Source of the DNA: an alpha proteobacterium MED-G10
Lineage (GTDB): Bacteria > Pseudomonadota > Alphaproteobacteria > Methylaequorales > Methylaequoraceae
Assembly (NCBI GenBank): GCA_002457065.1
Contig: NTKR01000006.1
Coordinates: forward strand, 1 to 36,821
Direction of reading: 5' to 3'
DNA: 36,821 nt
Part shown: piece by piece, positions 20,350-26,392 of the stretch
Position numbering within the stretch: position 1 is the stretch's first letter
How the letters are laid out: each line of letters starts with the position of its first letter
Program-made: the position numbers and the translations under genes
Notes under the pieces: model-generated
Told to the model about the DNA's origin: nothing
What the model saw: only the letters and a program-made list of their open reading frames with translations
Database searches by the model: none

Positions 20350-21162
20350 ATGCTCTTTAACTCAAAAACAAAATTTCTAAAAACGTTTCTGTTAACTGTT
20401 TTTTTCACTTTTTCCTCTTCGCCAGTCTTGTCACAGCTTTTGTCATATCAAAGTGAATACGAAGTCGAACTGGGTAACTCAGAAGTTGTTAGAGTTCCTG
20501 GAAAAACATATGTAGACAAGGCCTCAGGACAATTATTTATAGACTGGATTAATAATTGTAATAATTCTTGGGTTTCTAATCAAAGAATGATGACTAGATT
20601 CATTAATTCTCACGGCGTAGGAACTTTAAGTGAGATAAACTATTCAGTAAATGAAAGCATAGATGGAGACAAAATGGATTTTGTCCTAGAAATAAAAGAA
20701 GATGCCGAGCTTGTTGATAGAACAATAGGAGAGGCAATTAAAGCAAAAAAAGTAACTGTAAATTTTCCAAGAACAGATAAAGAGAAGTTAATGTTTCCCG
20801 AAGACGTAATCTTTCCGCATAGTTTTCTTAAAGAAGTTTCTGGCAAGTTAGATAAAGACCAAAAAATAATTACACATAAAGTTTATGAAGGCACAATACC
20901 AAATAATTTCTTTAATATTTCAGTATTTTTTACGGACGAAACAGTAAAAGAGTCCAACGTTAAATTACCCAATAAAATTAATAACAAATTTAAGAAAATT
21001 AGAATGTCATATTACAAAGGAAGTGAATCAACCCCTATTTTTGAGCAAACAGTTCAATTAAATGAACAAGGTATAGCCAATTACTTTAAATACGATTACC
21101 CCGACTATTCATTGATTGTCAAACTTAAAAAAATTTCTTTAGTAAAGTTAAATTGTGATTAG
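20350..21162 (+). CDS. EipB-like periplasmic envelope-integrity protein (DUF1849)
   Basis: 270-residue secreted protein with a signal peptide of about 28 residues. The mature part starts LLSYQSEYEVELGN and contains GQLFIDWINNCNNSWVSNQR, resembling the RAVYELSL...Y.W...CDG......R opening of EipB (DUF1849). EipB is a beta-spiral periplasmic protein needed for envelope integrity in Brucella. FPEDVIFPHSFLKEV and IRMSYYKGSESTPIFEQT also fit the family. Two cysteines, Cys70 and Cys269, match the conserved disulfide pair of EipB (Cys69–Cys278 in Brucella). The gene is alone on its strand and overlaps its convergent neighbour by 15 nt. Confidence 0.82.
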   Translation: MLFNSKTKFLKTFLLTVFFTFSSSPVLSQLLSYQSEYEVELGNSEVVRVPGKTYVDKASGQLFIDWINNCNNSWVSNQRMMTRFINSHGVGTLSEINYSVNESIDGDKMDFVLEIKEDAELVDRTIGEAIKAKKVTVNFPRTDKEKLMFPEDVIFPHSFLKEVSGKLDKDQKIITHKVYEGTIPNNFFNISVFFTDETVKESNVKLPNKINNKFKKIRMSYYKGSESTPIFEQTVQLNEQGIANYFKYDYPDYSLIVKLKKISLVKLNCD

Positions 21163-21873
21163 TTCAATCATACCTTCAAATTTTTTTTTGTAAGATTTAT
21201 AAATACTTAAAATTCTTTGATTATTAATTACTCGATCTTGTCCAATGGTTATGTAGAAGGTATTTGGTGAAGTTCTATTTCTTAATACTGGATATTTAAC
21301 CTTAAGACCATTAGTTTTTAAAAAATTAGTTATCTCAGATATGTAAGGGAAAAAACTTTTATTATAAGATTGAAATTGAGTAAAAATTATAATCTTCCCT
21401 TTTGATTGATAGCTTTTGAGCTCATCTAATAACACATACTTCTGAGAATTTCTTCCGTTAGGTCTTTTTAAAATTCCGTTATCGGGATCTAAAAAAATGA
21501 TTTCGTTTCTACAGAAAAAATTTATTGAATTTTCAAACCATAGTTTCCTTTCGTTTCTCATTATTTTTTCGTTGTAAAACTTAACAAATTTTTGAAGGTG
21601 AGTTTTTGTTGTAAAATTTTTTAAATTTCTATTTTTTTTTTTAACTAAATCACTTAATTCAGATGATAGCTTCTCATCAAGATTTGTTACTTTTGGGTTA
21701 TTTAAATAACTACGCTTTTCTCCATCATTTTTTTTCAGTTCAGACTTGCTTATACTTTTTGGATCTACAAGAAACCAATTTAACCCAATTCGAACCTTTA
21801 AATTACTAGCTAAATGTTTAATAAATAAAAATTTGTAAAAATCATGAATATCCCCCAAATATCTCTCTTGCAT
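21148..21873 (-). CDS. Uncharacterised LDPDNG-motif protein
   Basis: 241-residue soluble protein without a signal peptide. The N terminus RYLGDIHDFYKFLFIKHLA, then RIGLNWFLVDP and the central FLDPDNGI with a following KYVLLDEL, match a widespread bacterial family that I recall only as hypothetical (RY.GD..D..KY.LLR.L....R.G..WYL....DG...YL; FLDPDNGLE). The FLDPDNG strand-end motif is reminiscent of the catalytic strand of Rossmann-like methyltransferases such as RlmJ, but no GxGxG SAM loop is apparent, so I do not assign that function. It stands alone, divergent from amtB by 193 bp and overlapping the eipB-like gene by 15 nt. Confidence 0.75.
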   Translation of the reverse strand: MQERYLGDIHDFYKFLFIKHLASNLKVRIGLNWFLVDPKSISKSELKKNDGEKRSYLNNPKVTNLDEKLSSELSDLVKKKNRNLKNFTTKTHLQKFVKFYNEKIMRNERKLWFENSINFFCRNEIIFLDPDNGILKRPNGRNSQKYVLLDELKSYQSKGKIIIFTQFQSYNKSFFPYISEITNFLKTNGLKVKYPVLRNRTSPNTFYITIGQDRVINNQRILSIYKSYKKKFEGMIELITI

Positions 21874-23423: not shown

Positions 23424-23457
23424 AAAAAAAGGGCCTATCTCAGGCCCTTTTTCCCTT
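23424..23457. terminator. Bidirectional rho-independent terminator after amtB
   Basis: GGGCCT (23431–23436), a 5-nt ATCTC loop and AGGCCC (23442–23447) form a perfect GC-rich hairpin, flanked by an A run on the left and a T run on the right. Read forward it ends amtB with TTTTT; read in reverse it ends the long minus-strand block with TTTTTTT. The stop codon and last codons of the HpnL-like gene lie inside the hairpin. It is the only classical intrinsic terminator I found in the window. Confidence 0.88.
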
Positions 23458-24423
23458 TTTATTATAAAATACAAAAATCCAAATTAAAACTGCTGGTATC
23501 CCTACAATTATTTCTCTTATTCTTCTCCCAATTGCTATTGAAAAGGCTACTGTATCTCCCAGACCGACGTAATTACCAATAAGAACAAAAGCTAATTCTT
23601 GAACACCAAGCCCAGCTGGAATGAAAAAGGCAACCGCTCTCACAATCCCTGTAAATGCCTCAATTAAAATTACGTCGAGCAAAGATGCATCAACGCCAAT
23701 AATAAAAAGAAAAACATAGATTTCGAACGCTCCAGCAATCCAACCCAATAATCTACTTAATAGCGCCTTTAATAAATTTAGTCTATTTCTACTGAGAAGA
23801 AATAGTGAAAAATCAATTTTAAATAAAATTCTTAGATTTTTTTTATTAAGTCTAAATCCAAAAATATTTTCTTTTTTTAAAAGAAATTTTATCAACCTTA
23901 ATTTAATGAAAAAGTAGAAAAATATACAGCCCAAAAACATTAAAAAAAGTGATACATATAAGTAAAAACTTTTTTGATTATTAAACAATGAAATACTATC
24001 AAAGGTCACAACTAATAAGCTGAAAATAGAAATCAAAAACAAAGAAAATGTCGCAATTATGAGATCCGCAAAAACAGTTGATGATGACTCATAAATTGTC
24101 AATCCTCTTTTAACACCTAAGTAAACCCTAATAAACTCTCCTGATATTGTTCCGGTAGGAAAGAATTTACCTGACGCCTGGGATATCCAAGTAATCAAAA
24201 AGGTCCACAATACTGATAATCTCTCTTTTTTTATGAAAACTTGCCATGCTATAGCATCAAAGTACAAGGTAGGAATGTGGGCAAAAATAATCAAATAAAG
24301 ATTTGACTTATTTTCATTAATTAATTTTATTGAATCTGGACTTCCAAAAAAATCATAAACCCACTTAAGTAAGAATAAACCAATTAGTAAGAAAAAAAAA
24401 AATTTGAAAAATTTGAACGACAT
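23440..24423 (-). CDS. HpnL-like/lysylphosphatidylglycerol synthase-type integral membrane protein (UPF0104)
   Basis: 327-residue polytopic protein with about eight hydrophobic segments, of the family that includes the TM domain of MprF and the hopanoid-associated HpnL. Seen: WISQASGKFFPTGTISGEFIRVYLGVKRG (consensus PG..GGE..R...L), FADLI, and the C-terminal FFIPAGLGVQELAFVLIGNYVGLG then IGRRIREIIVGIPAVLIW, which is close to HpnL. No MprF-type acyltransferase domain is present. I chose the ATG at 24423 (ATGA overlap with the PIG-L stop); an upstream in-frame ATG at 24450 is also possible. With the deacetylase and glycosyltransferase upstream it probably moves or helps make a glycolipid. The last codons form the terminator hairpin. 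Confidence 0.8.
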   Translation of the reverse strand: MSFKFFKFFFFLLIGLFLLKWVYDFFGSPDSIKLINENKSNLYLIIFAHIPTLYFDAIAWQVFIKKERLSVLWTFLITWISQASGKFFPTGTISGEFIRVYLGVKRGLTIYESSSTVFADLIIATFSLFLISIFSLLVVTFDSISLFNNQKSFYLYVSLFLMFLGCIFFYFFIKLRLIKFLLKKENIFGFRLNKKNLRILFKIDFSLFLLSRNRLNLLKALLSRLLGWIAGAFEIYVFLFIIGVDASLLDVILIEAFTGIVRAVAFFIPAGLGVQELAFVLIGNYVGLGDTVAFSIAIGRRIREIIVGIPAVLIWIFVFYNKKGKRA

Positions 24424-25172
24424 CAGAATATTTTTGATTCTGCAATACATTTACATATTAATTCAGGACTGTCAGAGTCAACTCTTGGATGCCAATCAAA
24501 AAAAGAAAACCTTCTATAAAATAATGTCCCTTGATGTGGAGGTTTCATATAATCATAATTTATTAATTTTCTATACGATTCTTGTTTTAGTGAAATGTAA
24601 TTTAAATTATTTGATTCTGACAAATAAATATTTAACATTTTTCTTTTAATCTTTTTTTCCTCGTTTGTTAACTCTATTATAATATCCTTCTTCGCTGGCT
24701 TGATGAACTTGTTACTATTTATTTTCTTTTGAAAAAAATTGTATTCAGCAAATTCATATATACTGAAATATACATTCAACCTGGAGCAAATAAAGTTAGC
24801 GACATCGTGATCTTGGTGACCTCCCTCATATGCTGGACAAAAAATAGTATCAATTTTATAGGATTTTCCTATTTTCAAAATTTTATTATAGGTTTTTTCA
24901 ATATTTAATTTTAATGATCTAGTTGGTATATTTTGTAAAAAAAACTTTTTAAAACCAAGGTGAGATATTGAGCTCTTCATTTCTTTATTTCTTCTCTTTA
25001 CTTTCTTTTCGTGCCCATTTCTATCCCAATACCATTGTTGATTTTTAGAAATGACCCCATTCGTAAGGAAAAAAAAAAATAAATTTTTTTTTTTTAATAG
25101 TCGATTAATTATTATAGATGCTCCCACAATTTCATCATCCGGATGAGGAATTATAAAAAGAATATTATTCAT
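24423..25172 (-). CDS. PIG-L/LmbE-family zinc deacetylase
   Basis: 249-residue member of the PIG-L family, whose characterised members (PIG-L, MshB, BshB) de-N-acetylate GlcNAc conjugates. Zinc and catalytic residues are visible: IIPHPDDEIVGA gives His10, Asp12 and Asp13, and GGHQDHD supplies His119 and His122. Two back-to-back homopolymers (A12 then T11 on the coding strand, 25069–25095) encode KKKNLFFFF at residues 27–35. The gene overlaps the glycosyltransferase by 4 nt and the HpnL-like gene by a few nt, so the three should be made together. Substrate is unknown; a GlcNAc-lipid is the best guess from context. Confidence 0.85.
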   Translation of the reverse strand: MNNILFIIPHPDDEIVGASIIINRLLKKKNLFFFFLTNGVISKNQQWYWDRNGHEKKVKRRNKEMKSSISHLGFKKFFLQNIPTRSLKLNIEKTYNKILKIGKSYKIDTIFCPAYEGGHQDHDVANFICSRLNVYFSIYEFAEYNFFQKKINSNKFIKPAKKDIIIELTNEEKKIKRKMLNIYLSESNNLNYISLKQESYRKLINYDYMKPPHQGTLFYRRFSFFDWHPRVDSDSPELICKCIAESKIF

Positions 25173-26392
25173 TTATTTGTCAACTCTTTCCAATTTTTAA
25201 AAAAATACTGAAAAAAAATATCTTTCCACGATTTTTGTGAATTGTCATTTTTTAATTTCTTTTTAATTTGATGTATTTTTGTATTATTAATTAGCAAATC
25301 TTCTATTTTCTCTGCCCAAAGATTAGCTTCATATTTTTTTATTATTATACCATCTTCGCCACTTTTCCTTATTCTTCTTCCACCTCCATTTGGTGAAACA
25401 ATACAAACTGCTTGACAGGATTTTGCCTCTAAAACAACTTGAGGACCAGTTTCATACAATGAAGGAAAGACAAATAAATCACAAATATTTAAAAAAGATG
25501 AAATTTCCTTTTCATTAATATGGTCCAATATTACAAGGTTTCTTCCACCTAGCCTTTTACAATCATCTCCCTGAAGATTTTCTCCAGCTAAAATTGTAGT
25601 AACTTTATGTTTTCTTGATTTAAGGATTTTATGTATCTCTGATAAAAATAAAACTCCTTTAAGCTCGTGAATTCTTCCACAAAAAAAAATAATCTTTTGG
25701 TCAGAATTTATATTGTACTTTCTTAAAAAATTTAGTTTATTAACATTCTTTTTTTTAAAAATTTTTTTATCTATTCCTCTTTCAAGCTTAATAATTTTAT
25801 CTTGAAGGTGTTCTACCCTAAAGTTGTCATATGAGAAATCGCTAATCATTATTTTTTTACAATATTTAAAATATGAAATGATATTGGATATTTGATTTGC
25901 AGAAACTTTTTCAGGTAACTTTAATTTATTTATAAAAAAACCTGAAAAAGGTAAATGATTTAGAAATTTGCTTACATAAAATTTGGTATAATTGGGAGCG
26001 TCAGTGTGATAAGAGCTAGTAAGAGGAATGTTGTATTTTTTTGAAACCAATTTTGCTGTTTTTGACATCGTAAACAATTGATCGGTTGTATGAATTAAAT
26101 CAAATTTTTTTAACTTTAGGTATAAACTTGGATTTACGGGAGATAAATCAGTATAATCGGCATCAATGCCAAAAAACCTAAGAAATGAAGACGAAAAGAT
26201 TGGTTTAATTATATTCAAACTTATAAACTTATTAACAAGCTTTCGTTCTTTTTTTTTACCTAGAAAAAAAAATTCTAAGTAACAATCTAAATTTTCTTTT
26301 TCTAGTGATTTATATATTCGTTCCCAAAACTTTACATGGCCACCAGATTTTCTTGATAATTCCAAATCTACTAAAATTGCAACTTTAAACAT
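25169..26392 (-). CDS. GT4-family glycosyltransferase
   Basis: 407-residue GT-B glycosyltransferase. The C-terminal domain has FFCGRIHELKGVLFLSEI (GR....KG signature), TTILAGENLQGDD, HINEKEISSFL and FVFPSLYETGPQVVLEAKSC (the E-x7-E nucleotide-sugar site). The N-terminal acceptor domain has LIHTTDQLF and SSYHTDAPNY. It does not look like BshA or a typical LPS core enzyme at its N terminus. First of three overlapping genes with a PIG-L deacetylase and an HpnL-like membrane protein, suggesting transfer of an N-acetylhexosamine to a lipid. The donor sugar cannot be read from the sequence. Confidence 0.86.
   Translation of the reverse strand: MFKVAILVDLELSRKSGGHVKFWERIYKSLEKENLDCYLEFFFLGKKKERKLVNKFISLNIIKPIFSSSFLRFFGIDADYTDLSPVNPSLYLKLKKFDLIHTTDQLFTMSKTAKLVSKKYNIPLTSSYHTDAPNYTKFYVSKFLNHLPFSGFFINKLKLPEKVSANQISNIISYFKYCKKIMISDFSYDNFRVEHLQDKIIKLERGIDKKIFKKKNVNKLNFLRKYNINSDQKIIFFCGRIHELKGVLFLSEIHKILKSRKHKVTTILAGENLQGDDCKRLGGRNLVILDHINEKEISSFLNICDLFVFPSLYETGPQVVLEAKSCQAVCIVSPNGGGRRIRKSGEDGIIIKKYEANLWAEKIEDLLINNTKIHQIKKKLKNDNSQKSWKDIFFQYFFKNWKELTNK

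Follow-up and report, generated by a model that had tools for sequence, protein, structure and literature searches.

A candidate hopanoid head-group module made of a GT4 glycosyltransferase, a PIG-L deacetylase and an HpnL-like protein in a marine alphaproteobacterial lineage

Hopanoids are the bacterial counterparts of cholesterol, and composite hopanoids are known both as membrane-ordering lipids and as sediment biomarkers. HpnH and HpnG carry out steps toward extended hopanoids, and in the HpnI/HpnK route bacteriohopanetetrol (BHT) is converted into BHT-GlcNAc and then BHT-GlcN, from which HpnJ generates the cyclitol ether. A GT4 transferase paired with a PIG-L deacetylase, the two working on a GlcNAc conjugate, is a feature which the locus described here would share with BshA/BshB, MshA/MshB and PIG-A/PIG-L. 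The acceptors of these enzymes are soluble or phosphatidylinositol, and we know of no HpnL-like partner for them. Two further systems follow a synthase-deacetylase-flippase logic. The gpgSDF genes of Pseudomonas aeruginosa produce GlcNAc-PG and then GlcN-PG, the third gene being a predicted flippase (PMC12713373), and hexSDF of Clostridioides difficile applies the same logic to hexosyl-diradylglycerol (PMC10128005).

The window, a stretch of 36,821 nucleotides, is contig C39 of a draft alphaproteobacterial genome (0.99 Mb, 77.9% complete) which is marine and small. It carries three consecutive genes that resemble the HpnI/HpnK/HpnL system in that a glycosyltransferase is followed by a deacetylase and directly by a protein of the HpnL clade, in hosts with HpnH and SHC. 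The enzyme families differ, being GT4 and PIG-L, with a retaining transferase expected where HpnI is inverting. Synthase-deacetylase-flippase order, the GT4 family and a membrane protein of the LPG_synthase_TM/UPF0104 superfamily are shared with gpgSDF, whose deacetylase is however of the COG3233 type and whose acceptor is phosphatidylglycerol, whereas the window has PIG-L, a separate GT4 subfamily and a separate flippase clade. The hexSDF system likewise has the same gene order and logic and an amino-sugar glycolipid product, as would be expected for the window, but it employs an MGDG-synthase-like transferase, HexD of the polysaccharide deacetylase family, an MprF-like HexF and a hexosyl-diradylglycerol acceptor. 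An earlier note on this DNA was aware of no pathway that had been described with precisely these three genes; their order is in fact published for gpgSDF and hexSDF, with other deacetylase families (PMC12713373, PMC10128005). The logic is thus already known, and what is new here is the probable hopanoid acceptor together with the enzyme families.

The trio and its conservation in the family

The genes are transcribed in the order GT4, PIG-L, HpnL-like, and their position and families, as first read from the letters, were verified by open reading frames, Pfam matches and intact catalytic motifs (Table 1). The GT4 and PIG-L genes have 4 nt (ATGA) in common, as described earlier; the second junction, also described as ATGA-type, is strictly a TGATG in which the PIG-L stop and the likely HpnL-like start overlap by 1 nt at 24423. 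An upstream ATG at 24450 would give a 28-nt overlap, but relatives use the later one.

Table 1. Features of the trio in the window.
Feature	Position	Strand	Family or basis
GT4 glycosyltransferase, 407 aa	25169-26392	minus	PF00534 Glycos_transf_1
PIG-L family de-N-acetylase, 249 aa	24423-25172	minus	PF02585
HpnL-like polytopic membrane protein, LPG_synthase_TM	23440-24450 (likely start 24423, 327 aa)	minus	PF03706
ATGA overlap, GT4 stop/PIG-L start	25169-25172	minus	sequence

The transferase matched its Pfam family with 93.8 bits (1.1e-26; gathering score 26.4) and the deacetylase with 74.9 bits (1.1e-20; gathering score 28.2). Among 21 family members, the EX7E motif (E314, E322) and R240/K245 of GT4 are invariant, as are the HPDDE and HQDH metal-site motifs of PIG-L, in agreement with the intact deacetylase site reported before. 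The fold matches of a structural model of PIG-L were sugar de-N-acetylases, namely MshB, BshB and diacetylchitobiose deacetylase. PIG-L is the only Pfam match of the window deacetylase, which is neither COG3233 nor HpnK, and the transferase, being GT4, falls outside HpnI (TIGR03472, cut-off 310). Of the GT4 and PIG-L proteins tested against NCBIfam, none was covered by a curated equivalog model.

The third protein scored 94.9 bits (7.8e-27) against PF03706, likewise far over the gathering score, and 156.4 bits (1.1e-45) against the HpnL model TIGR03476, which is below the cut-off of 195.65; in other lineages, the HpnL homologues that accompany GT4/PIG-L reached 237-331 bits, above it. In a maximum-likelihood tree with GpgF as the only outgroup, which separates the protein from GpgF and not from every flippase family, the window, trio-linked and HpnK-linked proteins were split from GpgF by a branch supported at 100/100. 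In most of the HpnK genomes examined HpnL lies directly after HpnK, the same place that the HpnL-like gene takes after PIG-L. The AlphaFold model (pLDDT 83) was compared with known structures, as had been suggested, and gave one clear PDB fold relative, MprF.

Conservation was studied in 32 mostly incomplete family genomes from 12 genera; related records are single-cell genomes and MAGs that carry the labels Alphaproteobacteria, Rickettsiales or Pelagibacteraceae. A PIG-L orthologue is present in 27 of the 32, covering 11 of the 12 genera. In a scan of genome contigs the window PIG-L as a single sequence gave no match, and an alignment did. Both GT4 and the HpnL-like gene flank PIG-L wherever the contig is long enough, with identities to the window proteins as low as ~44%. 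Such block conservation is not due to chance, and bears out the proposal of a single module. The DASS transporter upstream of the trio is absent from several genera and the Amt (ammonium transporter) gene, convergent or displaced, is not constant in place or direction with respect to a conserved gene at 21148-21873, so that the conserved unit is the trio alone. A phosphate-stress glycolipid was rejected on the same grounds, neither transporter gene belonging to the module. The suggestion that the lipid would matter in phosphate-poor seawater thus found no footing, since nothing links the genes with phosphate and a hopanoid is the acceptor that the evidence favours. The gene at 21148-21873 (minus strand) has no significant Pfam family and keeps its synteny with the trio in almost every genome of the family. 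In one relative (genome G006, L069:10001-10773), a frameshift around residues 52-58 splits PIG-L while GT4 and the HpnL-like gene are intact, reflecting either a pseudogene or an assembly error.

Association with hopanoid genes

A set of extended-hopanoid genes (SHC, HpnA-E, G, H and M) is present in the window's own genome, with a cluster on contig C23 comprising HpnB, HpnC, dxs, HpnD, HpnE, SHC, HpnG, HpnH, ispH, HpnA and HpnM. The assignment of HpnB, C, G, H, A, M and ispH comes from their own NCBIfam scores, those of HpnG, HpnC and HpnM lying under the cut-offs; SHC was found by Pfam. For HpnD, HpnE and dxs the scoring was done in a sister genus, and the genes at the corresponding places of the own cluster were used as queries in the linkage search. 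The earlier note had invoked hopanoids as an analogy; the analogy holds, but it stopped there although the lineage has this cluster elsewhere in its genome. SHC was found in the own genome and 23 of the 32 family relatives, a count that would be near the ceiling which mean completeness allows for a core gene. Neither HpnK (TIGR03473) nor HpnI above its cut-off of 310 (TIGR03472) was found in any of the 32. The trio lies outside the hpn cluster in this lineage except in genus g10 (L052), where a cluster of HpnH, HpnG, SHC, HpnE and HpnD starts ~2.3 kb past it. Literature on the HIMB59/AEGEAN-169 clade, to which the window may belong, contained no statement on hopanoid synthesis.

Several neighbouring genes were also recorded. 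Genome G006 has two tandem HpnH-like radical SAM genes (L107:6183-8563), 82% and 52% identical to HpnH of the window lineage, and genus g10 a divergent HpnH-like copy adjoining HpnG and SHC (L052:14003-15118). Formylmethanofuran dehydrogenase subunit C- and B-like genes lie near the hopanoid cluster of the own genome (L102:14783-17661), and a subunit B-like gene lies near ispE in a relative (L052:4849-5925).

A set of 385 alphaproteobacterial genomes, sampled evenly, contained the PIG-L orthologue (threshold E<=1e-35) in 18, HpnH in 106 (27.5%) and HpnK in 29. All 13 PIG-L carriers outside the window's own family, which represent 8 families and 10 genera, had HpnH (hypergeometric p 2.4e-8 by genome and 1.1e-6 by genus, kinship being treated by merging at genus level only). 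The association is no looser than the one seen for HpnK, which occurs with HpnH in 27 of its 29 genomes. The only exceptions to the pairing in the class sample were two incomplete genomes of the own family, G012 (92% complete) and G025 (89%), which bear the trio and lack both SHC and HpnH, perhaps because the hpn cluster lies on one missing stretch. HpnK was absent from all 18 PIG-L carriers, whereas 4.1 shared genomes would be expected within the HpnH-bearing set (p 0.006 by genome, ~0.02 by genus); merging related genomes leaves a modest exclusion, which is supportive rather than strong. GT4 and PIG-L were neighbours in 10 of 13 class genomes. The other three, all HpnH-bearing, have PIG-L without an adjacent GT4 (L131, L133 and L137), and a search for its transferase partner in these did not find one.

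More widely, a GT4 orthologue adjoins PIG-L in four phyla, the two being neighbours at 12 of 14 distant loci, and the PIG-L signature PAYEGGHQDHD is kept across phyla with small variations. Among the 14 named carriers at such distances, which come from four phyla and include Planctomycetota, Myxococcota and Desulfobacteraceae, 13 had an HpnH scoring over the cut-off, although at least two of these 13 share HpnH coordinates with class-sample genomes, which makes the two sets partly dependent; the exception was the Myxococcales MAG L056. Paramagnetospirillum marisnigri and Azospirillum oleiclasticum are carriers available in culture. The genes near these distant loci were at one stage taken as random, a view that was abandoned when hpn genes were found nearby by tblastn searches using hopanoid proteins of the family as queries. 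The pair is in or beside hpn clusters in A. oleiclasticum and in genome G539: GT4 of A. oleiclasticum (L067) is separated by 140 bp from the HpnB gene of its hpn cluster, and the order HpnL-HpnA-PIGL-GT4-HpnM-HpnH-SHC is seen at L134. The pair lies ~4 kb from HpnG-SHC-HpnH-HpnL in a Desulfobacteraceae MAG (L070) and adjoins HpnA/HpnL in MAGs of Myxococcota (L068) and Planctomycetota (L058). In the PIG-L tree, two paralogues of the PIG-L family (L030, L083) split from the orthologues and a long-branched plasmid paralogue sits within unresolved forks. A PIG-L of Skermanella plasmids was set aside as a distant paralogue (~31% identical) in a glycan locus. Directly 3' of GT4/PIG-L in the Desulfobacteraceae MAG is a radical SAM gene (L070:10828-11934) without an NCBIfam equivalog above cut-off, whose product could act on the amino sugar like HpnJ or be unrelated.

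Proposed function and alternative readings

Comparative genomics, namely conservation, motifs, folds, the hopanoid pathway, HpnH co-occurrence, HpnK exclusion and hpn linkage, suggests that the trio is probably a hopanoid head-group module in which GT4 and PIG-L are a non-homologous replacement of HpnI and HpnK making glucosaminyl-BHT, with transport by the HpnL-like protein. From this we infer donor, acceptor, linkage, order of steps and flipping. GT4 would transfer GlcNAc, presumably from UDP-GlcNAc, to the side chain of BHT at the cytoplasmic face. PIG-L would then remove the acetyl group from the GlcNAc-hopanoid to give glucosaminyl-BHT, and the HpnL-like protein, a putative flippase, would move the product across the inner membrane or hand it on from there. 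HpnL would be the part common to this route and to that of HpnI (GT2) and HpnK. In the CAZy classification GT4 is a retaining family and GT2 an inverting one, so the sugar should be alpha-linked, unlike that of the HpnI product. Taken together, these results confirm the initial observation and support part of its interpretation: GlcNAc-type transfer followed by deacetylation and the parallel with HpnI/HpnK/HpnL are upheld, and HpnH co-occurrence and hpn linkage make a lipid acceptor likely.

Within a hopanoid setting, the product may differ from glucosaminyl-BHT, either as an amino sugar on another bacteriohopanepolyol or as a cyclitol-ether-type precursor for further enzymes. The presence of HpnA, HpnB and other hopanoid-associated enzymes without assigned function is compatible with this, as are the radical SAM gene following GT4/PIG-L at L070 and the cyclitol-ether-type products of species without hpnI/J/K (PMC12583986), but no constant extra enzyme accompanies the family trio and we regard such a product as rather unlikely. 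Lower still is the probability of a gpgSDF-like module which would place GlcNAc on phosphatidylglycerol (or diacylglycerol), with deacetylation by PIG-L, flipping by the third protein and a hopanoid co-occurrence due to ecology or descent. Gene order and logic do match gpgSDF and hexSDF (PMC12713373, PMC10128005), and GT4 weakly resembles the GlcN-PG synthase model NF053787 (34.7 bits, with relatives up to 96.8). That score is however far under the cut-off of 480, and GpgS loci in turn reach at most 33 bits against the GT4 profile of the window family, so the trio is not gpgSDF by homology. The third protein had no match at E<=0.1 to the GlcN-PG flippase model NF053789 (cut-off 320), for which GpgF loci score 466-533, and it groups in the HpnL clade; GlcN-PG by direct homology was rejected on the scores of both models. 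HpnH in 13 of 13 carriers over 10 genera, together with hpn-cluster linkage, would also be unexpected for a PG-modifying system.

A role of GT4 and PIG-L in LPS, capsule or other surface-glycan assembly, the HpnL-like protein being a bystander or a mover of undecaprenyl-linked sugars, appears very improbable. The family does make LPS, as LpxC is present in 27 of 32 genomes, and GT4/PIG-L pairs are known in glycan loci such as those of Skermanella plasmids; yet the PIG-L found there is the distant paralogue mentioned above, no surface-glycan gene was recognised among trio neighbours in the family and distant loci examined, and the conserved partners are HpnH and HpnL.

Implications for hopanoid sources

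A 2025 survey of alphaproteobacteria reported cyclitol-ether-type hopanoids, unexplained, in four species without hpnI/J/K, as well as a late-eluting BHT-glucosamine isomer of open structure, and HpnL is there without an established function (PMC12583986). More tentatively than the module itself, and with somewhat less than even confidence, we propose a second, cross-phylum glucosaminyl-hopanoid pathway through a retaining GT4 and PIG-L. Its alpha-linked BHT-glucosamine might account for the late-eluting isomer and for cyclitol-ether-type products formed without hpnI, hpnJ and hpnK, and amino-sugar hopanoids might then occur in open-ocean bacterioplankton. The GT4/PIG-L pair makes the source of the cyclitol ethers, the BHT-glucosamine isomer and the role of HpnL directly testable. 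Marker surveys based on hpnI/hpnK alone would overlook GT4/PIG-L producers and, if the proposed function is true, a marine lineage with small genomes joins the likely sources of amino-sugar hopanoids.
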